Assembly: GCA_017999985.1 (NCBI GenBank)
Contig: JAGNKU010000003.1
Span: 248,001 to 312,000 of the forward strand
Source: Phycisphaerae bacterium
Lineage (GTDB): Bacteria; Planctomycetota; Phycisphaerae; UBA1845; Fen-1342
Direction of reading: 5' to 3'
Length of the DNA stretch: 64,000 nucleotides
The translations under genes were made by a program, and so were the position numbers. Shown here in pieces: positions 4,245-17,625 of this stretch; position 1 is the first letter of the stretch; every line of letters begins with the position of its first letter. The notes below the pieces were generated by a model. It searched no databases and had not been told where the DNA came from. It was given only the letters and a program-made list of their open reading frames with translations.

Positions 4245-6209
4245 TTACTCCGCGGGTGGATACAGCTCGATCTCGCTGATCTGCGCCGCATTGGGCAGCG
4301 CCGGGTTGGCCGAACTGCGGATCACGAGTCGGAACGTGTCGGTCACGACCGGTGCGATCTGCGCACGATACACGCCGGGCTCCGCGTTTTCCGGCACGTT
4401 GAACACCTCCTGCAGCTCGGTTGCACCGACCGGCAGCACGAAGCCCTGGAAACTGGTCGGGTAATCCGCGGGATCGGCGAAGCGAATGACGACGCGGCCG
4501 AGCGCGGCGGCTTGCGGCAGCTTGATTTGCAGCCAGTGCGGGTGTGGCGTCGTCAGCGAAGAATGCCAGCGGTTGGAGAAGTCCTCGGGCGTGGCCTTCA
4601 GACCGTCAATGACTTTGTGAGCGCACGGCGCTTCGGCTGCGTACTCACTGTTGCAGGTCACCTGTGCGCCCTTGGATGCCAGCGCCAGGTCGTCCGGCCC
4701 GATCTCGTCCGGGCGGATGAGGGTGACCGGGATGCTGACTCGGCCGTTGGTGTCACCGATCTCCAGCTTCATCGGATAGGCACGCAACTCGGGCGCCGGG
4801 GCCGTAAACGTCAGCGTGAAATCGGCGGATGCGCCCGGCCCGACGGCCAGCGCGCGCTGCGGGAGGCCCGTGAGGGTCCAATCCGCTGGCAGATCGCGCA
4901 GCGCGACGTTCAACGCCCGGGGCTCACGGCTCCGGTTGTGAACGCTGACCCGCAGCGGACGCGCGTTTGCGGGCGCGATCACTGGCGCGCTGATGTAATC
5001 CACGACCACCCCCAGATCCGGCTCGCTCCACACCACCTGGTAGGGCGACAGTTCCCAGAGCGACTTGGCGGCGACCGGATCCCGGAGCGTCAACTCAGCG
5101 ACGCGGCGCATGTCCGTGGGACCCTCGGTGAGCGCCACGGGAGCATGGTGGTGCGCCAGCACGACCTTGGTCATCGCCACGGTCTGGTCGGTCAGCGTGT
5201 TGATGTCCTCCGGGTGCCGGAAACCGCTGATGGCGACCGTCTTGATCTTCAGGCCCACCGGCTCACTCCAGCGTTCCGGGATGCCCCTGGTGCCTTCGAG
5301 GATACCGAAGAGCGCACCCAGGGTCGCACCCGTGCAGTCCGTGTCATCGCCGCAGTTCACCGCGCGGCACAGGCTCCGGCCGAAATCTCCCTCCCCGTAA
5401 AGCCAGCCCAGAACCACGTATCCCAGGTTGCGCGGTGCCTGGAACCACCCCGTCGCCTCGCTGGCGTCGATCACGTCCTGCCGCGCCGCCTGCCAGTCCT
5501 TGCCGGCCTGCCGGGCTGCGATGGCCGCGCGAATCGCGCTGGCGACCTGGCTCTCGCGCGGGATCATTGCGAGCCCGATGTCCAGGAGCTTGTCGCGGTC
5601 GCGCTCGACGAACGCCGCGCTTTCCACGGCGGCGGTGAAGATCTCGGCGAGCGTGCCTTCCGCAGCCCCGTGGTCGACGCAAGCATCCTCGCGGGCGAGC
5701 TGAGCGGCGAGCACCGGGCAGCCCGGTGCCAGGCACGCCCAGAGCTCGGAACGAATCCACGCGCCGTTGCTGTGCTTCCAGCGCGCGTTGTCGTACTCCC
5801 CGGACAGCGGCGGCAGCAGCCCCAGGCGCATGTTCCGCTTGCCCACGCCGTACTCGTTCCAGTCCACCGGCACGTACTTCAGCCAGTATTCGCCGAGAAT
5901 GCGCGCGTCGACCCGACCGGCGTGGTCCTGCATGGCGCGCAGCCAGAGCAACTGCAGGTCGAGATCGTCGTTGGCGGCGGGCTCGCCGGGTTTGAGGTCG
6001 GTATAGAAGGTAATGCTGCGCGGCCCGCGTTGGCCCTCGAAGGGCATGCCCAACGTGCCGCCGATGTTCTTGCCAAGCCAGCAGGCGAAGACGCGATCGC
6101 GAAACTCACCCTCGTTGAGCAGCACCTTGGGCTCGTCCGCCGCCCAGGTTGTGCCGACCAACAGCGTGCTCACGAGGCTGATCCAGCCGTGACGAAGCCG
6201 ACGTGTCAT
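4245..6209 (-). CDS. Secreted ADP-ribosylglycohydrolase-fold protein with C-terminal beta domains
   Basis: A 654-residue protein with a signal peptide (cleavage near WAADEP). Residues ~28-370 form an ADP-ribosylglycohydrolase (DraG/ARH) fold: the entry motif FACWLGKNIGGTLG, an acidic ANDDLDLQ segment, and NCGDDTDCTGATLG at residues 285-298, which carries the metal-binding aspartates. Residues ~400-500 look like an NEW3-type beta-sandwich. Residues ~520-650 resemble an F5/8-type (discoidin) carbohydrate-binding domain. Classical members remove ADP-ribose from proteins in the cytoplasm, so export plus a sugar-binding tail suggests a different substrate, perhaps a glycan or glycoside. The URO-D-like gene follows in the same orientation. 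The fold is clear; the function is open. Confidence 0.82.
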   Translation of the reverse strand: MTRRLRHGWISLVSTLLVGTTWAADEPKVLLNEGEFRDRVFACWLGKNIGGTLGMPFEGQRGPRSITFYTDLKPGEPAANDDLDLQLLWLRAMQDHAGRVDARILGEYWLKYVPVDWNEYGVGKRNMRLGLLPPLSGEYDNARWKHSNGAWIRSELWACLAPGCPVLAAQLAREDACVDHGAAEGTLAEIFTAAVESAAFVERDRDKLLDIGLAMIPRESQVASAIRAAIAARQAGKDWQAARQDVIDASEATGWFQAPRNLGYVVLGWLYGEGDFGRSLCRAVNCGDDTDCTGATLGALFGILEGTRGIPERWSEPVGLKIKTVAISGFRHPEDINTLTDQTVAMTKVVLAHHHAPVALTEGPTDMRRVAELTLRDPVAAKSLWELSPYQVVWSEPDLGVVVDYISAPVIAPANARPLRVSVHNRSREPRALNVALRDLPADWTLTGLPQRALAVGPGASADFTLTFTAPAPELRAYPMKLEIGDTNGRVSIPVTLIRPDEIGPDDLALASKGAQVTCNSEYAAEAPCAHKVIDGLKATPEDFSNRWHSSLTTPHPHWLQIKLPQAAALGRVVIRFADPADYPTSFQGFVLPVGATELQEVFNVPENAEPGVYRAQIAPVVTDTFRLVIRSSANPALPNAAQISEIELYPPAE

Positions 6210-7226: not shown

Positions 7227-7723
7227 GGCAGCACTCCTGATTGCGTGTCAGGTGCGGCGACGCGGCCGGGTCGCCATGTCGCACGCGGATTCTCAGACCG
7301 GTGTCACGGCGGACGGCGCCGCGCCGCAATGCAACTTACCCGAACAACGCTCGGGCATCTGCATAGATAGACAGCCAGGGTCGTCGGGCGTTAGCGGCAC
7401 TGAGGGTCCGTGCCGTACGGCAGATGGCGGTGGGGCGGCGGTTCACGCGGGGCGTGGAGGTTCACGTGCCGGCGGCCGCGTGCGGGGACAACGGAAAGGC
7501 GGGTGTAAGCCCATGACCAGCAATGTGTTGGGCATCGTCGGGCGTGAAAAGCGCGCGCTGCGGCTCGTGTGATGCGTGTGCCGACGTTGGTGATCGGGGA
7601 CCGGGTCGGAATCTGTAACTGCCGCTGGCGTGGGGCGTTGCATGGACCGTGTTCGTGTGAAGGGCGTCTCGCGGCGGCCTGGCACACCGCGCTTCTGTTA
7701 TACCGACGCGACAGGACTGCAAT
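7227..7723. other. Divergent intergenic region before the AAA+/vWA operon
   Basis: A 497-bp gap between the two-repeat exported protein (minus) and the AAA+ operon (plus). I see no convincing gene in it; the open frames on both strands have arginine-rich, non-coding-like composition. A small dyad, CCCGA and TCGGG separated by 7 bp, lies near 7337-7355. A TA-rich spot (TTATAC near 7698) sits just upstream of the first ATPase gene but has no good -35 partner. Promoters for both directions probably lie here but cannot be placed. Confidence 0.4.
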
Positions 7724-9898
7724 GTGAAAGTTCCGGATGCCGAGATGAAGAAGCAGATCGAAACTCAGGCCGTGGAGCAGATTCAGGCCGTGGTGTGCAC
7801 CGAGCTGGCCTGCCAGGTCACTCGCTCGGACGGCGATAGCACCTGGGTCTTCCAGGCGAACGGCCCGGAGATCAGCTCGGCGACGCTCAAGCTGAGCGGG
7901 GAGCGCCTGGAACTCGTCGTCACACTGGCGAGTACGGCCGGTGTGACCAGGGCCGCGGCGGTCGAGCTGTGGCGTATTGTTGCCGGCTTGCAGACGGGCA
8001 CGGACCGGGCCGGCACGGTCTTCGGGCCGATCGAGGCGCGGAACGGCTGCTTCGAGCTGCCGGTGAAGCTGGAGCTGCATAATGCTCCGCTCGATCTGCC
8101 GCGTCTCACCAAGCTGCGGCAGGCGCTGCGCGCCGTCCGCGAGGCGGGGGCCGCGCTGCGGGCGCTGCCGGGTTTTGGCAATCCATCGCCGCAGGCGCAG
8201 ATCCCGCCGGAGCTGGCCGACTACCTCGTGCCGTTGGAAGCCCGCGCCTACCCGGACACCGGAACCGGCAGTTGTGCTGATGTCATCGGCCGGCGTTTGG
8301 GCGCGGGGCTGCCGCTGGCGCTGGTGGCGCCGCCGCTGCGCGTCCAGCTCGAGCTCGACCGGATCGTAGCGCGGACTCCCGCAGCACTCACCATGCCCAA
8401 GGGAGTCGTGCGTGTGGACGAATTGCCGCGGCTGCTGTGCGCCATGCGCCCATACGATCTCGTGCTGGCGATGCACAGTTCTCTGTTGCGGGCGTCCATG
8501 TCGGTATACGAAATGGGCCGCGACCTCGACGCGCTCTTTCACCAGCTCAGGGGCTTGGATGTGGGGCTCATTCTTCACGGGACCCGCGAGGAACTCGAGA
8601 GCGCGTTGGGCGTCGGCCAGGGCCGCACGTTCTCGCCGCTGTACCCGTTGCTGGAGACGCTCGCGCCGGCGGCGCCCGTCGATCTGGCGTGGTGCGCCCT
8701 CGGACGGCACGGCATCGCCCGACAGAACCGGGGTCCGGACCTCGGGGCCCTGCTCGTCGATGTGATCACCGCCGAGGCCGACGGCACTTTCGACGAGCGG
8801 TACGTGACGCCGCTCGCGGCGACGGCGGCGAAGCTCGGGCCGGGTCACGCGGAGCTCGCGGACCGCCTGCACGGGCAGATGTGCGATCTCACGGGCTCGC
8901 GCGACACTCTCGGGACCGTGGGTGACGGCTCGGCGACGCCGCGCCCGCCGTGGCTGCAGGAGCGGCTGCACGACCGGCTGCGGGGCAACGCGTTTGAGCA
9001 GTTCCTCAAGCGGGCGCTGGTGGGTCAGGACCGGGCGGTGGCGGAATTCGCGGCGCGCGTCTTTCAGGAGACGGTGAGCCGGCCGCCGACGGCGCCGCTG
9101 CGCGTGCTCCAGGCGGGGCCACCCGGGACTGGCAAGAGTCTTGGCGCCAAGTTGCTGGCCGAGTATCTCGACCTCGCGTACCACTACATCGACGCCGCGG
9201 GCTACAGCAGCTCACACTCCGTGATGGCGAGCCTCACGGGTGCGGCGCCGGGGCTGGTCTCGTCGTACCAGGACGGCACGCTGGCGCGGATTGCGCGGCG
9301 CCCCGCGGTGCTGGAAATCGCGGACCTGGATCACGCGCCGCCGGACGTGCGCCAGGCCCTGACGGACTGCTCGCTGCGGCTGCTGCAGGAGGGGACCTTG
9401 CAGGCCGGCTCAGGGGCCACGATCCGCAGCCTGAGCAGCGTGATCTTCATCTACACCTCCAACATCGCCTACGCCGACCAGGGCGGGCCGGTGCGGCAGT
9501 TCGGGTTCGGCCAGCGCGCGCCCAGCCCGGCGGAAGTCTGCGAGCGCGTCCGCGAGCGGATGATCCGCGAACTCGGCTACGCGTTCGTGAGTCGCGTGGG
9601 AGAGCCGATCGTGTATGTCGAGTTCACGCCGGAGTCGGCCGCCGCGCTGGCGCAGCGCGAGATCCGGCAACTGGTCGCGCGGACGACGCGTGCCGCCAGC
9701 GTGGAGGTTCCGGACGAGGCGGCGGCGCTGGTTGTGGAGAGCATGCCGAACTTTGCGGGTGGCGCGCGGCGGATCATGGACGAGGTTCACAAGTGGATTG
9801 TGCCGGCGCTGGGCGAATTGAACGACGAACGCGGGCAAGCGCTCGAAGTCGTGCGCGCCGGGCGCGCCCAGCTGATTGTGCGCAGGAAGGAAGGTTGA
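7724..9898 (+). CDS. ClpB-like AAA+ ATPase with degenerate Walker B and novel N-terminal half
   Basis: A 724-residue protein, first gene of a four-gene operon. The C-terminal ~300 residues align by eye with the D2 (AAA_2) module of ClpB/Hsp104: a QDRAVAEF entry segment, Walker A GPPGTGKS at 465-472, a pore-like segment GAAPGLVSSYQDG, sensor-1 TSN at 578-580, and a C-terminal GGARRIMDEV resembling the sensor-2 region. Where ClpB has the Walker B Asp-Glu, this protein reads VLEIAD (529-534), so the metal-binding Asp is lost. Residues ~1-430 match nothing I recognise; part may be a second, P-loop-less ATPase-like fold. It starts at GTG 7724 with AGGA 7 nt upstream; an ATG at 7745 has no ribosome site. 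It is not a canonical ClpB, which is larger and has two intact P-loops. Probable role: remodelling of a partner with the vWA protein. Confidence 0.8.
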   Translation: MKVPDAEMKKQIETQAVEQIQAVVCTELACQVTRSDGDSTWVFQANGPEISSATLKLSGERLELVVTLASTAGVTRAAAVELWRIVAGLQTGTDRAGTVFGPIEARNGCFELPVKLELHNAPLDLPRLTKLRQALRAVREAGAALRALPGFGNPSPQAQIPPELADYLVPLEARAYPDTGTGSCADVIGRRLGAGLPLALVAPPLRVQLELDRIVARTPAALTMPKGVVRVDELPRLLCAMRPYDLVLAMHSSLLRASMSVYEMGRDLDALFHQLRGLDVGLILHGTREELESALGVGQGRTFSPLYPLLETLAPAAPVDLAWCALGRHGIARQNRGPDLGALLVDVITAEADGTFDERYVTPLAATAAKLGPGHAELADRLHGQMCDLTGSRDTLGTVGDGSATPRPPWLQERLHDRLRGNAFEQFLKRALVGQDRAVAEFAARVFQETVSRPPTAPLRVLQAGPPGTGKSLGAKLLAEYLDLAYHYIDAAGYSSSHSVMASLTGAAPGLVSSYQDGTLARIARRPAVLEIADLDHAPPDVRQALTDCSLRLLQEGTLQAGSGATIRSLSSVIFIYTSNIAYADQGGPVRQFGFGQRAPSPAEVCERVRERMIRELGYAFVSRVGEPIVYVEFTPESAAALAQREIRQLVARTTRAASVEVPDEAAALVVESMPNFAGGARRIMDEVHKWIVPALGELNDERGQALEVVRAGRAQLIVRRKEG

Positions 9899-9901
9899 GC
9901 G

Positions 9902-10885
9902 ATGCGTCCCATCGTGAGTGTCACTGACATTGCCAGGGCGTCGAGCGGCTCGCTGGTCAAGCTGGGCGGGCGCCGGGCGTACTATTGCGAGTACGACACC
10001 CTGGTCTCGGTCGTGGATGCGATCCAGAACCGCACCCCCGTGCACATCAGCTCGGAATCCGGCTCGGGCAAGACCCACCTGCTCAACGCGCTGCTGTTCG
10101 AGGAGCACGGCGCCAACTTCACCGCGGTCGTGCGCGGGCTGCGGCAACGTCCGTGGCCCGGGCTCAAGTGCTTCCGGATCTTCGCCAGTGAGCACGAGCT
10201 GCCCCGCGACCTGTGGTACAAGACCGAGGTGCGCAGTTTCACCACGATCGAGGTGGCCCAATCGATCCTGGCGATTCTCGCGGAGGCCGAGCAGCAACCC
10301 GACACGCTGTTCGTGATCTGGATCGTCGAGGCGGGGCGCGGAGTCTCGGACAAGATCCAGGGCGCCTGGCTCGAAGTCATCGGTCAACACCCGATCCGTG
10401 AGCCGCGCGGCCGCGAATTCGAGCTCGATAACCTGACGTTCGTGACCGACTCGAACCACGTGGCGAACCAGGCCGGGCAGTTCGCGATCTGGGACTTGGA
10501 CCATGCGTACGGCCGGCGCTTTCTGCGCCGCATTCACCTGCGGCCGCTGTTGCCCGAACAGGAAGCGGCCATCCTGCGGGAGCTGGCGCCGCAGGCCAAG
10601 GACCGGCACATCGAGCAGGTCGTGAATCTGGCCGCTGCCGTCCGGCACCGGCAGCGTGAGGGCGCGCTGGCCAGCATTCTGCCCCCGACTCTGGATCTCG
10701 AGCTCGATCTGCTCGGGTGCCTGCAGCGGCTGAACAAGGTCAATTCGCGGCGACTCGTCTTCGACACTCTGCTGGGACACTGCTCAGACCAGGACCTGGA
10801 TGACGCGGAGAGCGTTTACGCGCAGGTGTTCGGCGTCAAAGTCACCAGTTCCACGCCCGCCGGGGAAGCCGTGGGCATTCTGTGA
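9902..10885 (+). CDS. MoxR-like AAA+ ATPase with degenerate Walker B
   Basis: A 327-residue single-module AAA+ protein, 3 bp after the ClpB-like gene, with AAGGAAGG before its ATG. Visible elements are Walker A ESGSGKT at 52-58, the Walker B position VIWIVEA at 138-144 where the expected Asp-Glu reads Val-Glu, a sensor-1-like VTDSN segment near 180, and YGRRFLRRIHLRPL resembling the DRF region that supplies the arginine finger in MoxR/RavA proteins. The order and length fit the MoxR group, whose members work with vWA proteins (RavA-ViaA, CbbQ-CbbO) as chaperones or activators. Loss of the Walker B Asp is shared with its upstream neighbour. It may form a mixed ring or bind nucleotide without fast hydrolysis. 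The MoxR placement is likely but not certain. Confidence 0.78.
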   Translation: MRPIVSVTDIARASSGSLVKLGGRRAYYCEYDTLVSVVDAIQNRTPVHISSESGSGKTHLLNALLFEEHGANFTAVVRGLRQRPWPGLKCFRIFASEHELPRDLWYKTEVRSFTTIEVAQSILAILAEAEQQPDTLFVIWIVEAGRGVSDKIQGAWLEVIGQHPIREPRGREFELDNLTFVTDSNHVANQAGQFAIWDLDHAYGRRFLRRIHLRPLLPEQEAAILRELAPQAKDRHIEQVVNLAAAVRHRQREGALASILPPTLDLELDLLGCLQRLNKVNSRRLVFDTLLGHCSDQDLDDAESVYAQVFGVKVTSSTPAGEAVGIL

Positions 10886-10897
10886 GGAGCGACCGTC

Positions 10898-12979
10898 GTG
10901 GCGAAGTTCGACTCCGCTGACAACGAAGGGTTCAGCCGGTGGGACTACGACGACCGGGAACCGTTTCTCCGACCCTGGCGCAAAATCTCGATCGCGGATG
11001 CGCGGCGCTGCACGGCGTCCTGGAAGAAACGCGTGGATGCGGAAGAAATGCTGGACAATCAGATCCATGAGGCCCAGCTCCTGGCCGCGAGCTGCGCGCT
11101 CGGTCGTCCGGCCCAGGCGGCGGACCTGAAAGCCAAGCCACAGAAAGGGCCGCTCTACACGCAGTATCCGGGCTATCCCGCCGCCCGCGCCTGCATCGGA
11201 CACACGGCCATTGCCGAGACGCTGGCGCAACTGCAGGCCGGCGCGCTGCCGCCGGTGGATTCAGCCACGCTCGGCCCGAGAGCGGCCCGGGTCGACCCGA
11301 CGGCCCTCGCGCGTACGGCTCAGTATGTGCAGGAGCAGGTCGGCTACCGGCAGGTGCTCGACCATCTGACACATTTCCGAAACCTGACCGCGGCCGAATC
11401 GTACCGCCTGTTTGCCTGCGCCATGAACGACTTCAGCTTTCCCCTGCTGCGCGACGTCATCTGCGCGGCGGTCAATCTCGGTGAGTGCCTCGCCGGGTGG
11501 GTGAGCCGTCCCGCCGTGCGGGCGCAACTGCACCCCCTGACCGTCCGGGTCTTTGACGCCCTGACGCCGGTGGTCGCCGAATACACGGCCGCGCTCAACC
11601 ATTGTGAAGCCCACGAACTTCCCGCCCGCGGCGCGGCGCTCCAACGGGCCCTGCTCACGGCGTTGCTGCCGCTGCTGCCGCCGCCCGCAGCACCGACCGA
11701 CGAAAAGCACCCGGCTACGGCGGCGCCCCAGGATGTGAACCGGGTTCCGCTGGCACGGGAGGGCCGGCCGCTGCAAATTTCCGCGGCGGACCCGCTGCGC
11801 GGGCTCGATGAGCTTGGCCCGCCGCTGATCGATCAGCCTGCGAATCCCCTGGCACTGCTCTGTGCGCGTGCGGGCGGGGAGGCGGTACTCCCGTCCGGGG
11901 TCGACGCCGGCCACTCCGATCTCCAGATGCTGCTGCAGGCTTTGGGCCAGTCGTTGTCCGCGGCGACGCAGGATGACGCCTGGGGGACGCCGCGCACGGA
12001 CGCGGTCAGCCGGACCATTCAAACCAGCCTGTTCAGGCCGGGGGTGATGGAGGACAAGCTGGCGACGGAGAAGCACCGCGTGAAGCTGTTCGGCACCAAC
12101 CGCGAGGAGCTGATTGCCGAGGAGATTCTGCCGCGCGCCCGGGATGCCGCGATTGTGGACCGCGTCCGGCGGGGCGCCGCGCCGATCGAACGCAAGCTGC
12201 GCCGCTTCCAATGGTTCGGGAATCGCAAGGAGCTTGCCGTCGACCGGCACCACAGCCAGGGCAGTCTGGACGCCCGGCGGCTCCATCGAATCGGCACTTC
12301 CGCGCTGCTGTACCGTCAGTGGCACGAGCACGTGGTCACCGACTATCACGGTGAGCCGCTGGTCGTGCTGGCCATGGATGGCAGCAGCTCGAATACCGTC
12401 CATACGAGCTTTGCCGGGCAGATCGTGACGGCGGCGTTCCTGAAGATCGCGCGGCTGGCGCGCATCCGCGTCTTGGCGGCCGAGTACTCGTCAGGGTCCG
12501 GGGGGGCCCTGGTGCGCTGGCTGCATCATCCGCGCAAGACGGCGGGCGCACGCGGTGAGGACGCGCTGGAGGTGATCGCCAGCCTCCCGCTCGGCGGACA
12601 GGGCTGCAATCACGATGTGGGGAGCATTTCCTACATCATCCGGGTAGCGCTGCCGCTGCTGGCGCCCGGCCAGGTCGTCTACGTCGTCAACATTACGGAT
12701 GGTCAATACAACAGCCCGCTGCCCGAAGTCCGCGCGATGATCCGGGCACTGCGCGAGCAACTCCGGCTGGTCTACACGGTGGTCGTGCTGGGCGAGCACG
12801 TCGTGGACCTCCCGGAAGCCCACCACGTGGTTCACGTGCCCGCGGCCGAGTTGCAGGACGCACACGCGATCGCGGAACGGATCGGGATACACGTGCACGG
12901 CCTCGTACAGAACATGCGCACGAAAGGAAAACGCGGCCATGTGGCGCAAAGACTCCGACGACGAGCCCCGGTGGGATGA
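10898..12979 (+). CDS. vWA-domain protein (CoxE/ViaA-type partner of the AAA+ pair)
   Basis: A 693-residue protein with a GTG start at 10898 preceded by GAGGAG. Residues ~1-480 are mostly helical and unrecognised. Residues ~485-690 form a von Willebrand A domain: the metal-binding site (MIDAS) motif MDGSSS with Asp494, a central AAEYSSG segment, and VNITDGQYN supplying the later MIDAS aspartate. This arrangement of a long N-terminus and a C-terminal vWA domain resembles CoxE, ViaA and CbbO, which pair with MoxR ATPases. There is no signal peptide or membrane segment, so it should be cytoplasmic. The gene follows the two AAA+ genes by 12 bp and overlaps the next gene by 41 bp, indicating coupled expression and probably one complex. 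Confidence 0.82.
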   Translation: MAKFDSADNEGFSRWDYDDREPFLRPWRKISIADARRCTASWKKRVDAEEMLDNQIHEAQLLAASCALGRPAQAADLKAKPQKGPLYTQYPGYPAARACIGHTAIAETLAQLQAGALPPVDSATLGPRAARVDPTALARTAQYVQEQVGYRQVLDHLTHFRNLTAAESYRLFACAMNDFSFPLLRDVICAAVNLGECLAGWVSRPAVRAQLHPLTVRVFDALTPVVAEYTAALNHCEAHELPARGAALQRALLTALLPLLPPPAAPTDEKHPATAAPQDVNRVPLAREGRPLQISAADPLRGLDELGPPLIDQPANPLALLCARAGGEAVLPSGVDAGHSDLQMLLQALGQSLSAATQDDAWGTPRTDAVSRTIQTSLFRPGVMEDKLATEKHRVKLFGTNREELIAEEILPRARDAAIVDRVRRGAAPIERKLRRFQWFGNRKELAVDRHHSQGSLDARRLHRIGTSALLYRQWHEHVVTDYHGEPLVVLAMDGSSSNTVHTSFAGQIVTAAFLKIARLARIRVLAAEYSSGSGGALVRWLHHPRKTAGARGEDALEVIASLPLGGQGCNHDVGSISYIIRVALPLLAPGQVVYVVNITDGQYNSPLPEVRAMIRALREQLRLVYTVVVLGEHVVDLPEAHHVVHVPAAELQDAHAIAERIGIHVHGLVQNMRTKGKRGHVAQRLRRRAPVG

Positions 12980-14021
12980 TACTTACTGGAGCAGGCGCCG
13001 CCGTCGCAGCCAGTCCGAGCTGCTGGCGCTGCTGGCCCCGCTGATCCGCCAGCTCGAGCGCGTCGATGGACTGACAGCCCGGTTCAGAAGCGGCGCGGCG
13101 TGTGTCGCGGACCTGGGGCGGCTGAATGACCTCCTGGCGCAGGAGTTCACGCTGCTCGAGGACGGGCGTCCGCGCAAGGTGTCGCTGGTCAAACCGGCGG
13201 AGCTGCGCGACGCGTTGCACTGGATCAGCACGGATCTCCACCTGGAGATCCACCAGTACAAGGACCTGTTGCCCTGCTACTTGCTCGGCCGCGTGCGCCG
13301 GCACTGGAGCGCCGATCACCTGCTGGATGAAATGTACGTGTCGCCGCGCAATGATTTCTTCCTCGATGCCTGCTTCGTGACGCTCAAGCAGGGCGGCCAT
13401 CCGCAGGTGGCGCTGCGGCTGTCCGGGCTGCGGGCCCGGACGCTGGCGCTGCTCGGCGCGGACGGCGGCGGACGTGACCCCGAAGCCGACTGCGACGAGG
13501 TGCTCGAGGCGGTTGGTAACCTCGTGTTCAACGCGGCCTGGTACGAGGACCAGCGTCTGGCACTGCGGGTCGCGGAGGTTTTTTCGCTCGGCCATTTCCG
13601 GTCGACGCTGGAACTGGTCGCCTACACGCTGGGGGCCGATCTGCATCGTGTCGCCGCGGACCTGGGTACCGCTCCGGCGCTGACCGCGCGCTTTTTCGAC
13701 GAGGTCTACGAGAATGCGTATCTGTCGCGGGTGCTCGCGCACCTCCGCGCGCGAAACGTACCCGACCTCAGCCGCCTGGAGGACGTTGCGCGCGCCGAGT
13801 TCGAACGGCTGAACGCGCTCTTCGGCGTGTTCCTGGGCACGCGAAACGCCATCCGGGACCTGGAGCGCGTGCCGCTGTATCACTGCGTCCTGGGCTTCTA
13901 CTTCAACCTGCCCGAGGTGGCGAGCCCGGCGTACTGGACGCCCGCGTGCCGGCGGGCGGTGGCACGCGTCGAGGCGGGCGCCGCGCAGTGCGCGGAGCGC
14001 ATCGTCCAGGTCTTCGAATGA
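12939..14021 (+). CDS. Unknown protein, last gene of the AAA+/vWA operon
   Basis: A 360-residue protein I do not recognise. It starts at ATG 12939, inside the last 41 bases of the vWA gene, with AAAGGAA about 9 nt upstream. It has a basic, arginine-rich N-terminus (residues 15-25) and then long amphipathic helical stretches rich in Leu, Ala, Arg and Glu. No enzyme motif, signal peptide or membrane segment is visible. Overlapping coding and the co-directional operon make it the likely fourth subunit or the client of the AAA+/vWA machine. It ends 7 bp before the stop of the convergent winged-helix gene. Confidence 0.75.
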   Translation: MWRKDSDDEPRWDDTYWSRRRRRSQSELLALLAPLIRQLERVDGLTARFRSGAACVADLGRLNDLLAQEFTLLEDGRPRKVSLVKPAELRDALHWISTDLHLEIHQYKDLLPCYLLGRVRRHWSADHLLDEMYVSPRNDFFLDACFVTLKQGGHPQVALRLSGLRARTLALLGADGGGRDPEADCDEVLEAVGNLVFNAAWYEDQRLALRVAEVFSLGHFRSTLELVAYTLGADLHRVAADLGTAPALTARFFDEVYENAYLSRVLAHLRARNVPDLSRLEDVARAEFERLNALFGVFLGTRNAIRDLERVPLYHCVLGFYFNLPEVASPAYWTPACRRAVARVEAGAAQCAERIVQVFE

Positions 14022-14670: not shown

Positions 14671-15406
14671 GTGTTCGACCTCGCGCTCAGGGAGGGGACC
14701 TGGTTCCGGTCGGCGCTGGCATCCGACGTGGAAGCCCAGCGCCACGCGTGCGTCGGGAACGTGGACCTGCCGTCGGAGGAGTGCGCTGGGCAACGCTTGA
14801 CGCGCGTGCTCCGCCGGTGTAAGCGGGCTGACTGCGTACCCTGCTTCTCCCGGTGGCGTGAGTGCAACGGACTGGCGTGCATGCTTCCCTGCTCCTGTAC
14901 GCGGCCGGCGCTGCCACCGCGGGCGCCGCGCCGGTGGCGCGGCCGCTGGGTTACCGGGTCATTCGCCGGGCGCTGCGTGGCCGAATTGTGCTAAAGTGTG
15001 CAAAAATAACTGTAACTCTCACAGACAGTGTTTCCGGTCGCGGTGGCACTCCCGGCTAGTTTCAGCATAGAGCTTAACGGCGACCAGGGGGGCTTGTCAA
15101 GATGGAGTCTTGTAACCGTCTGTCAAATAAGATATTACAGCACAGTTTTGCGCGGCGCGCGTCCCGCTGTCTGGGTGGCCACTGCAGTTTCCCGCCGCCA
15201 GCCTAGAGGTGTGCCCGCGGCAACACGGAATGGTCGGTTTTGCCTCAAAGTGTGGTGACCAATCGACCCATGTTGACGTTTCTGTATCAAATGGTATGAT
15301 GGTTAACATCCGGGCCCAGGGCGGCCTGGTCCCGCTGGGCCGCGGATCAGCCGCGTCTGGCCGGATGCCGGCGGCCGCCGGATGTTCCGGAAAGGAGGCG
15401 CAACTC
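14671..15406. promoter_or_regulatory. Long divergent control region with AT-rich islands and TGTAA half-sites
   Basis: A 736-bp gap between the winged-helix gene (minus) and the SorC-type gene (plus); no gene is visible. It contains AT-rich islands at about 14988-15025 and 15105-15150 in otherwise GC-rich DNA. Three related half-sites occur: TGTAAC at 15011-15016 and 15111-15116 on the plus strand, and TTACAG at 15135-15140 in the opposite sense. The outer pair TGTAA...TTACA around 15111-15139 makes a spaced inverted repeat. These are candidate operators for the winged-helix or SorC regulator. Confidence 0.45.
15273..15300 (+). promoter_or_regulatory. Sigma70-type promoter of the SorC-PRPP genes
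   Basis: TTGACG (15273-15278) and TATGAT (15295-15300) are separated by 16 bp, close to the housekeeping consensus, and face the SorC-type gene whose ATG lies about 107 bp further on. It lies downstream of the TGTAA half-sites. Confidence 0.6.
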
Positions 15407-16573
15407 ATGGCGCGAAAACGCAGGACGGCGACGAAGGGGGGCGATGAGTCGATCCGGCCACCGCCGCCGCGGCGCGGACGCAAGCGCGCGGAGCGCCATC
15501 CCGGCGGCCTTACCGAGACGGAACTCATGTCTCTGGTCTGCGGCTACTTCTCACAGGGGTACACCGCGTCGGACATCAAGCGCCTGCTCGCCGAGCGGGA
15601 CGGCATCATGGTCAACCGCGAGGTGCCGCATCAGCTCTTCAACAAGGCCGCCGCGCGCGGTTGGATTCAGTTCACGCCGCCGCGCGAGCATGTGCTTGGC
15701 GAGGCGCTGGCGGCGAAGTACGCCTGGCTGCAGGACCTGCGGGTGGTGGAGAGTCCGCTGGTCCCGGACGTGGCCCGCGTCGGCGCCAAGGCGCTTTACC
15801 AGTTGCTGCAGCAGAAATTTGCCGGCCAGGAGGTGCACCTCGGCTTTTCTGGCGGACACTGCATGCGTGATCTGGCCAGAGCCCTCGCCAGCTTGCTGCA
15901 CGCGCCGACGCCAGATCTACCTCGGCGGATCGTCTTTCACGCGCTGGTGGCGGGCTTTGACATCGAGGACCCGACGACGGATCCAAACACGTTCTTCGCC
16001 TATCTCGTGAAGGATGCGGCGATGATGGTGGAGACGGGTTTCGTCGGTCTGCGGACACCACCGGTGGTCACGCGTGCCCAGTTCGACCAGCTGCGCACGC
16101 TGGAGGGCGTGAGCGAGTCGTTCGATCGCGCGCGGCAAGTGTCGGTCATCGTGACGTCGGCGCGCGACTGGCGCGACGCGCACAGCACGCTGCCCAAGTG
16201 GGTACGGGGCTCAACCGCCGACATCAGGAAACTGGAACAGTCGGGAGTGGTGGGTGACATCTTGTGGCGACCGCTGACGATGACGGGGCCGGCCGAGTGC
16301 GACACGGAGCGGCGCGCCATGACCATCATGGAACTGGCCGACCTGAGCCGGTTTGTCCGGGACGGCAAAGAAGTCCTGCTGGTGGTGGGGCCGTGCGCCG
16401 AACCGAAGTGCATGGCGCCCCAGAGCCGGATTGTGCGGGCGGTTCTGAACCAGGACCCGCGGCTGATCACGCGCCTGGTGGTTGACAGCCGCTGCGCGCG
16501 CGAACTGCTCGACGGCAGTCCGCAGTCCGCGCTGGGATGGTCCGGGCACCACCCGCGCGGCCACGCGAACTGA
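15407..16573 (+). CDS. SorC/DeoR-type sugar-phosphate-responsive regulator
   Basis: A 388-residue protein. The N-terminus is a basic, Arg/Pro-rich tail (1-40), followed by a helix-turn-helix region (about 45-95; ELMSLVCGYFSQGYTASDIK and following). The rest resembles the SorC sugar-binding domain with its Rossmann-like VHLGFSGGHCMRDLARAL segment near 145. SorC regulators respond to phosphorylated sugars such as ribose-, deoxyribose- or fructose-phosphates. The ATG at 15407 has AAAGGAGG 8 nt upstream; the open frame extends 198 bp further but with non-coding composition. The next gene, about 100 bp downstream, is a PRPP-synthetase paralogue, so the effector could be ribose 5-phosphate or PRPP. 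The family call is moderate because the ligand-binding domain is divergent. Confidence 0.7.
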   Translation: MARKRRTATKGGDESIRPPPPRRGRKRAERHPGGLTETELMSLVCGYFSQGYTASDIKRLLAERDGIMVNREVPHQLFNKAAARGWIQFTPPREHVLGEALAAKYAWLQDLRVVESPLVPDVARVGAKALYQLLQQKFAGQEVHLGFSGGHCMRDLARALASLLHAPTPDLPRRIVFHALVAGFDIEDPTTDPNTFFAYLVKDAAMMVETGFVGLRTPPVVTRAQFDQLRTLEGVSESFDRARQVSVIVTSARDWRDAHSTLPKWVRGSTADIRKLEQSGVVGDILWRPLTMTGPAECDTERRAMTIMELADLSRFVRDGKEVLLVVGPCAEPKCMAPQSRIVRAVLNQDPRLITRLVVDSRCARELLDGSPQSALGWSGHHPRGHAN

Positions 16574-16674
16574 CCGGTGCGGCCATCCGCTGAGGCGGCG
16601 GTGCGGTGCGTGCCGTGGCCGCAGGAGGCGCGTTTTCGGTCCTACGTATCGTGCCCGAGGAAGTGAGCAACAGC

Positions 16675-17625
16675 ATGGGCCGCCGCCGCAGCTTGCTTGT
16701 CTTTGCTGGATCTGCCAGTCCGGCCCTGACGTGTGCCATCTGCCGCGCGCTGGGTGTGCGGCCCGGCGCGTGTGACACGCGGCATTTCTCCGAGGGCAAC
16801 ACGTTCGTCCGCGTACTCGAAAATGTGCGCGGCAAGGACGTGTACGTCGTGCAGTCTCTGACGCAGCCGGTGAATGACCACTTCATGGAGCTGCTGTTCT
16901 ACGTGGATGCCCTGAAGCGGGCCTCCGCCGACAGCGTTACGGCGGTGATTCCCTTTTTCAGCTATGGCAAGGGCGACAAGAAGGACGAGCCCCGCGTCAG
17001 CCTGCGCGCCCGGGTGTGCGCCGACTGCCTCGAGACCGCCGGGGTGGATCGCGTGGTCACGCTCGATCTCCATGCACCGCAGATCCAGGGCTTCTTCCGC
17101 GTGCCGGTCGACCACCTCTACGCGCTGCCGGCGTTCGTCGCGCGCCTGCGCCGAAAGGTGACGCGCGACTGGGTCGTCGTGGCGCCGGACGCTGGCGCAA
17201 TCCACATGGCCAACAGCTACGCCCGCGTGCTGGGCACGGAGACGGCGGTCGCCGAGAAGCGCCGCAGCGCCCACGATGAGCAGGCCGCCGTGCGACGCAT
17301 TATCGGTGACGTGCGCGGCCGGGACGCGCTGATCGTCGATGATTTCACCACCAGCGGCGGGACGCTGGTCGCCACGGCCGTGCACCTGAAGGCGCAGCGC
17401 GCCAAGCGCGTTTGCGCGCTGGTCACCCACGGGGTCTTGGCTCCAGGGGCCGCGGCCCGGATCGACGCGAGCCCTATTGACCGCCTGCTGCTGACGGACA
17501 CCGTGGCGGTGCCGCCGGAGCGGCTACCCCGCAACGCGCACGTCGTCACGGTGGCGCCGCTGCTGGCGCGCGCGCTCCGCAACATCCACGACCGCACGAG
17601 TATCTCGGTGTTGTTCCAGTCCTGA
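16675..17625 (+). CDS. Ribose-phosphate pyrophosphokinase paralogue (PRPP synthetase family)
   Basis: A 316-residue protein matching PRPP synthetase throughout, from LLVFAGSASPAL to SISVLF at the C-terminus, the usual length. PRPP synthetase makes phosphoribosyl pyrophosphate from ribose 5-phosphate and ATP. Conserved landmarks are LENVRGKDVYVVQS, NDHFMELL, the catalytic VTLDLHAPQIQGFF and the PRPP loop VDDFTTSGGT. Two landmarks differ from the housekeeping enzyme: the flexible segment reads FSYGKGDKKDEPR instead of a YARQDR-type sequence, and the loop has Thr-Thr-Ser where IDT is usual. It is therefore probably a specialised paralogue. The start at 16675 is chosen because homology begins there; a GTG at 16663 is possible. 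It is probably co-transcribed with the SorC gene. Confidence 0.85.
   Translation: MGRRRSLLVFAGSASPALTCAICRALGVRPGACDTRHFSEGNTFVRVLENVRGKDVYVVQSLTQPVNDHFMELLFYVDALKRASADSVTAVIPFFSYGKGDKKDEPRVSLRARVCADCLETAGVDRVVTLDLHAPQIQGFFRVPVDHLYALPAFVARLRRKVTRDWVVVAPDAGAIHMANSYARVLGTETAVAEKRRSAHDEQAAVRRIIGDVRGRDALIVDDFTTSGGTLVATAVHLKAQRAKRVCALVTHGVLAPGAAARIDASPIDRLLLTDTVAVPPERLPRNAHVVTVAPLLARALRNIHDRTSISVLFQS

Follow-up and report, generated by a model that had tools for sequence, protein, structure and literature searches.

Whether an AAA+ machine can operate as a switch, by binding ATP, becomes directly testable with a four-gene operon (genes A, B, C, and D) in a 64,000-nucleotide stretch of the genome of a Phycisphaerae bacterium (GenBank assembly GCA_017999985.1, contig JAGNKU010000003.1, positions 248,001 to 312,000), here called the window. 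Genes A and B encode AAA+ ATPases of different clades, and it is unusual for two such proteins in one operon both to be fixed for loss of the Walker B Asp over such divergence (the concatenated proteins of homologous operons are 23 to 28% identical to those of the window). Our preferred reading, to which we give an even chance, is that A-B-C-D would be the core of a hitherto undescribed chaperone/co-chaperone system of the AAA+ type, spread horizontally, with switch-like use of ATP and effector gating; it may have been mentioned earlier, in a 2015 SLOG/SLATT survey.

Walker B motifs of the two ATPases

The operon consists of four open reading frames (ORFs) on the + strand. Gene A (7724-9898) encodes 724 amino acids (aa), with an N-terminal region of no named family (residues ∼1-405) and one ClpB-D2/Skd3-type AAA+ module (∼405-724); gene B (9902-10885) encodes a CobS/MoxR-type AAA+ protein of 327 aa; gene C (10898-12979) encodes 693 aa, with an N-terminal region of no recognized family and a C-terminal vWA domain (∼485-693); and gene D (12939-14021) encodes a mixed alpha/beta protein of 360 aa with no recognized fold. 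The gaps are 3 bp between A and B and 12 bp between B and C, and C and D overlap by 41 bp. This packing had been predicted from the sequence, and the ORF coordinates agree with it.

We aligned eight A and eight B sequences with Escherichia coli ClpB, RavA, and YehL. In all eight A sequences the motif [VL][VLI]E[IV][ACS]D[LI]DHA lies opposite VILLDEVEKA of ClpB, so that DEVEKA of ClpB corresponds to [ACS]D[LI]DHA of A. The alignment is gap-free within the motif, and in the window protein (AVLEIADLDHA, residues 528-538, 9305-9337) the D-E pair of the ClpB D2 Walker B is replaced by A533-D534. The A motif has been remade, not merely broken: there is an invariant Glu at −2, D-[LI]-D-H-A replaces E-V-E-K-A, and E531, D534, D536, and His537 are conserved in every copy. 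All eight B sequences have [RVM]E[IMA]GR opposite DEIWK of RavA; aligned with RavA and YehL, the window pair is V142-E143 (10325-10330), the Asp position being R, V, or M across the family and the Glu invariant. None of the eight sequences of either protein has an intact Walker B Asp at a shifted position, which confirms the original prediction that both ATPases lack it. E. coli YehL, a MoxR family protein (locus L072, 5597-6685), also lacks the Walker B Asp and reads F-E-E.

Other catalytic motifs are largely retained. A keeps Walker A (GPPGTGKS, residues 465-472, 9116-9139, intact in the alignment), sensor 1, and the Arg finger, and it keeps the sensor-2 GAR except in the protein of locus L013. 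The B family keeps the catalytic Glu, the Asn of sensor 1, and both Arg residues in the finger region (RRF); the usual sensor-2 Arg position is Thr or Asn (Asn in L013). Walker A is also kept in the B family, except that the P-loop of the window protein (SESGSGKT) has lost its first Gly.

Among three closely related Acidobacteria, the ratio of nonsynonymous to synonymous substitutions (dN/dS) was 0.02 to 0.045 for B, ∼0.10 for C, and ∼0.15 for A. For B this amounts to very strong purifying selection, and because its dN/dS is so low, we take the loss of the Asp to be a fixed family trait of both ATPases and not decay. From general knowledge of AAA+ proteins, A and B would be expected to coordinate Mg2+ less well and to hydrolyze ATP slowly or only with a partner. 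The roles of the two Walker B residues are stated in a paper on NorQ (PMC9976466).

Relationships of the four proteins

Scans of the four proteins against Pfam, NCBIfam, PADLOC, and PHROGs named only the AAA cores, and no entry in Pfam, NCBIfam, PADLOC, or the Protein Data Bank (PDB) names B, C, or D. Pfam AAA_2 matches A at residues 461-615 only (E 1.9e-10), and a match of A to PDC-M37B spans only the shared AAA core. By sequence, the A core is similar to ClpC/ClpB chains in their D2 ring (E 1e-14); by Foldseek, the A model resembles single-ring Skd3 (7ttr_E; TM score 0.76 by target, root mean square deviation 3.8 Å). Thus, A is like the D2 ring of ClpB/Hsp104 and like Skd3 in its AAA+ module (ClpC by sequence, Skd3 by Foldseek), and, as Skd3 does, it joins one ring to an N-terminal region of its own. 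The two AAA+ modules, ClpN domain, and canonical Walker B that mark ClpB/Hsp104 are absent from A. Its N-terminal ∼420 residues matched nothing in Pfam, NCBIfam, PADLOC, or PDB sequences, in keeping with the original description of this region as unrecognizable; by sequence it is unrelated to ClpN or to any library entry. The N-terminal half of the A model was of low confidence and was not interpreted.

On its own, the window B protein reached no Pfam, NCBIfam, or PADLOC cutoff, and the best match to the Pfam bpMoxR model was E 0.018, in one B protein. A profile built from six B proteins matched CobS (2.1e-6), midasin (6e-7), and the MoxR-like chain 2r44 (1.2e-5), and on this basis we place B on the MoxR/CobS side of the AAA+ proteins. 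B had earlier been labeled "MoxR-like"; CobS is a closer match to it than generic MoxR is.

C had no Pfam domain and no Pfam, NCBIfam, or PADLOC match. Its DxSxS motif (DGSSS, residues 494-498, 12377-12391) aligned with those of ViaA and YehP. The metal ion-dependent adhesion site (MIDAS) is intact in the window (D494-S496-S498, D573, and D601), and these five residues are invariant across eight C homologues. C matched none of the vWA partners of CobS-CobT, NorQ-NorD, CbbQ-CbbO, or RavA-ViaA in searches of Pfam, NCBIfam, and the PDB. D had no match in Pfam, NCBIfam, PADLOC, or PDB sequences. Its AlphaFold (AF2) model had a pLDDT of 84 and a pTM of 0.80, and Foldseek found nothing like it at E ≤ 0.001 in the PDB or BFVD; for want of such a match, D is a candidate for a new protein fold relative to these two databases. 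In one genome of the Acidobacteria (locus L042, 11464-12579), D is interrupted by an in-frame stop codon.

A MoxR-type AAA+ protein lies beside a vWA protein (B with C) in all full-length loci. CobS-CobT, NorQ-NorD, CbbQ-CbbO, and RavA-ViaA likewise pair a MoxR-type ring with a co-chaperone that has a C-terminal vWA domain and a MIDAS, but they have no second, ClpB-type ATPase and no D, and RavA has a canonical Walker B whereas the B proteins have R, V, or M in place of the Asp. The FtsH class of MoxR-vWA ternary systems, partly from planctomycetes, has a MoxR-type AAA+ protein, a vWA protein, a further AAA+ protein, and partly inactive AAA+ domains (PMC7159879). Its third component is a double FtsH protein, whereas that of our operon is of the ClpB-D2/Skd3 type, and the operon has in addition both Walker B changes and the new protein D. 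No VMAP, iSTAND, double-FtsH, or beta-propeller third component was found among the operon proteins. Because the third components of these four described classes are missing and A is of the ClpB/Skd3 type, the operon is best read as a MoxR-vWA system of a new, ClpB-type variety. The original prediction of an undescribed system outside every described, named one holds insofar as profile searches place none of B, C, and D in a named system and no library names the operon; with a precedent for a third AAA+ protein in MoxR-vWA systems (PMC7159879), the architecture is not wholly new.

Distribution, regulation, and neighbors of the homologous operons

A homologue scan of 84,980 species with a two-sequence alignment as the query had hits in Acidobacteria, Hydrogenedentota, Brocadiia, Proteobacteria, and "Bacteroides," and a phylum scan then added three Acidobacteria. 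The order A-B-C-D was kept in eight other loci, five in Acidobacteria (L009, L010, L041, L042, and L043) and one each in Brocadiia (L014/L006), Hydrogenedentota (L011), and a "Bacteroides" metagenome-assembled genome (MAG) (L013); conservation of the gene neighborhood had been named as a check on the original prediction. A Proteobacteria MAG (L012) also carries C-D. Every contig that is long enough has the genes in this same order, across at least four phyla. The operon is rare, occurring in 5 of 297 sampled Acidobacteria and 2 of 392 genomes of the window's phylum. C homologues were found in none of 60 relatives of the window genome and in one genome (G220) of the 392-genome sample. Trees of the four genes broadly agree; in them the window groups with L013 and L011, and the Brocadiia copy nests among the Acidobacteria. 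Given this agreement, the nesting, and the absence of C from the 60 relatives, the sporadic operon appears to move as a unit by horizontal transfer. By composition there was no sign of recent foreign origin of the window operon, since its GC content and its GC content at third codon positions (GC3) are those of the contig. A copy in genome G688 (L015/L029, G688:C207), of the window's own order, was not counted; it lies on a 3.9-kb contig, is 97 to 99.7% identical to the Acidobacteria L009 operon, and is probably bin contamination. Weak C matches in L004, L005, L039, L040, and L078 (E > 1e-4) were short pieces only and were ignored.

A sigma-54 activator gene adjoins the operon in six loci, divergent in L009 (4525-6270), L041, L042, L014 (4702-6489), and L043 (10813-12474) and codirectional in L010 (4728-6449). 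These activators share a conserved N terminus and a conserved C terminus. The C terminus of this subfamily is a conserved, helical-looking region in place of a recognizable Fis helix-turn-helix. The L011 activator has a different N terminus (FHA) and was left out of this group; that locus still has a sigma-54-like site. All seven non-window loci with sequence before A have a −24/−12-like site there. In six it precedes the called start by 47 to 91 bp; in L043 the called start is overextended, and the site lies at +12 of it. The background for such sites per 150 bp is 0.007 to 0.034 at ≥9/11 matches and ≤0.011 at ≥10/11; the sites of L009, L041, and L042 count as one phylogenetic event.

Genes for proteins with RyR domains (PF02026) share the operon contig in L009, L041, and L042, in L010, and in L014. 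Among the 297 Acidobacteria, RyR occurred in 13, comprising 5 of 5 operon-positive genomes and 8 of 292 others (P ∼7e-8, or ∼3.9e-5 with three near-identical genomes collapsed; hand calculation). The RyR-tagged neighbors differ between relatives. L009, L041, and L042 have a TrkA_N channel-RyR protein (K+-channel RCK module); L010 has a RelA/SpoT-type protein, an AAA-RyR protein, a NUDIX protein, and a SLOG-SLATT protein; and L014 has a RelA/SpoT-TPR-LSDAT-RyR protein, a NUDIX protein, and a homologue of the L010 AAA-RyR protein whose N terminus appears kinase-like. The operon-positive Proteobacteria MAG encodes an RyR-TPR-S protein.

RyR (R12) domains bind, and sometimes cleave, 2′/3′ cyclic ADP-ribose (cADPR) via H75, W78, H100, and D117 (2026 preprint, PMC13232231). 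Inspection by eye of the RyR domains that we recovered showed that the first His and the Asp are kept, that the Trp mostly is (H-x-x-W/F), and that the second His is mostly lost. Like the RyDEP proteins of that preprint, the neighbors in our relatives carry PF02026, here with the H-x-x-W/F motif and the DR acid mostly kept, but the hosts here are multidomain (RelA/SpoT, LSDAT, AAA, and TrkA_N) and the phosphate-binding His is replaced in most. These observations point to sensing of ADP-ribose (ADPR)-type nucleotides; this does not imply that the operon acts on RyR proteins. The main text of PMC7159879 mentions neither RyR nor sigma-54. RyR domains were linked to immune signals of the cADPR type in 2026, and their association with the operon is a concrete lead to the function of a module that has no name in any annotation library. 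On a contig other than that of the operon, genome G755 has an AAA-RyR gene beside a SLOG-like gene and divergent from a TIR-WD40 gene (L031, 2192-8367, G755:C185); this is a candidate cADPR-type signaling locus.

Readings of the operon

How might such a system work? B would assemble into a ring of the MoxR/CobS type and bind the vWA protein C, and C would hold an acidic target through its MIDAS metal; A, with one Skd3/ClpB-D2-type ring and its own N-terminal region, and D would complete the assembly. That A and B form one heteromeric machine, as originally suggested, is plausible, since they are co-conserved and co-altered and have broadly congruent trees. Because both have had the Mg-binding Asp replaced but retain Walker A, sensor 1, and the Arg finger, ATP would serve mainly as an assembly or release switch, with binding and slow or partner-dependent hydrolysis, and would not drive a fast motor. 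In most relatives, sigma-54 and a dedicated activator would switch the operon on, and the operon may serve stress or anti-phage signaling via RyR effectors that sense ADP-ribose-type nucleotides. Because genes that look like nucleotide-alarm immune effectors lie next to the operon in relatives, a stress- or conflict-related (anti-phage) role is probable. We consider unlikely the more specific proposal of a new class of nucleotide-signal immune system, a sigma-54-inducible double-AAA+/vWA machine whose two rings work by binding ATP and not by hydrolyzing it and which gates RyR-tagged effectors of cADPR/ADPR-type messengers, the window clade having replaced its effectors (SorC-like and PRPP-synthetase-like).

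Several results weigh against the preferred reading. RyR genes occur without the operon in eight Acidobacteria, and there is none in the genomes of the window, L011, and L013, whose operon copies make up one clade. The region upstream of the window A gene (7227-7723, + strand) has no −24/−12 site and no adjoining sigma-54 activator, and the sigma-54 activators of the window genome are located away from the operon. Because of these absences, the effector link may not apply to the window copy. Beyond the AAA core, A to D had no match in the defense library PADLOC-DB 2.0.0 (2023), with nothing at all for C or D. Searches of plasmids with B and C had no hits, and the one with A returned only generic Clp ATPases; searches of phages (C and B) and of viral contigs (C, D, and B) found no homologue.

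Both ATPases could instead be ordinary motors in which another acid coordinates Mg2+ (A offers the invariant −2 Glu or D534/D536 for this, and B its retained Glu only). The acids E531, D534, and D536 and His537, present in every A copy, would suit this explanation, as would the F-E-E of YehL at this site and the retention of sensor 1 and the Arg finger in the two ATPases. The mostly Arg residue at the Asp position of B, however, should disfavor Mg2+, the sensor-2 Arg position of B is Thr or Asn, and we know of no AAA+ protein that uses a −2 Glu for Mg2+, which also counts against it; we regard a relocated ligand as doubtful, though to be kept in mind. That both ATPases are decaying, functionless pseudo-enzymes might be suspected from the missing catalytic residues and the internal stop codon in the L042 D gene. 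Pseudogene decay was rejected on dN/dS (0.02 to 0.16 for A and B); the replacement motifs are conserved across phyla, and the window genes are all open with genome-typical GC3, so we find decay scarcely credible.

The remaining alternatives concern what the operon does or is descended from. It could be a housekeeping chaperone for metal insertion or enzyme remodeling, like NorQ-NorD, CbbQ-CbbO, and CobS-CobT, and not a conflict system. Three points speak for maturation: CobS is the nearest match of B, C has an intact vWA MIDAS, and NorQD requires its MIDAS for target binding (PMC9976466); yet NorQ needs ATP hydrolysis whereas A and B have altered Walker B motifs, no dedicated client such as a shared, conserved metalloenzyme was found in any flank examined, and the recurrent neighbors are sigma-54 activators and RyR, SLOG, RelA, and NUDIX proteins. 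We think such a chaperone rather unlikely. A known MoxR-vWA ternary conflict system (of the VMAP, iSTAND, FtsH, or beta-propeller class) that has diverged beyond recognition is improbable. The combination of MoxR, vWA, and a third AAA+ protein does resemble the FtsH class, which has an inactive AAA+ domain and occurs in planctomycetes (PMC7159879), but A has one ClpB-D2/Skd3 module in place of a pair of FtsH modules, domains of the VMAP, STAND, or propeller kind are absent, and bpMoxR gave only the marginal match in one B protein.

Three other genes near the window operon deserve mention. Downstream on the + strand lie a SorC-like sugar-binding protein gene (15209-16573; PF04198, 1.7e-5, below the cutoff), absent from 30 relatives and possibly a co-inserted neighbor, and a phosphoribosyl pyrophosphate (PRPP)-synthetase-family gene (16606-17625; PF13793, 1e-43), also a possible neighbor and the second of two copies in the genome. 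Together (15209-17625) the two may form either an accessory pair or a separate island. About 1.5 kb upstream, on the − strand (4245-6209), is a predicted ADP-ribosylglycohydrolase (PF03747, 7e-41) with an F5/8-type C domain and an apparent signal peptide; it is probably unrelated to the operon, yet notable given the ADPR theme.

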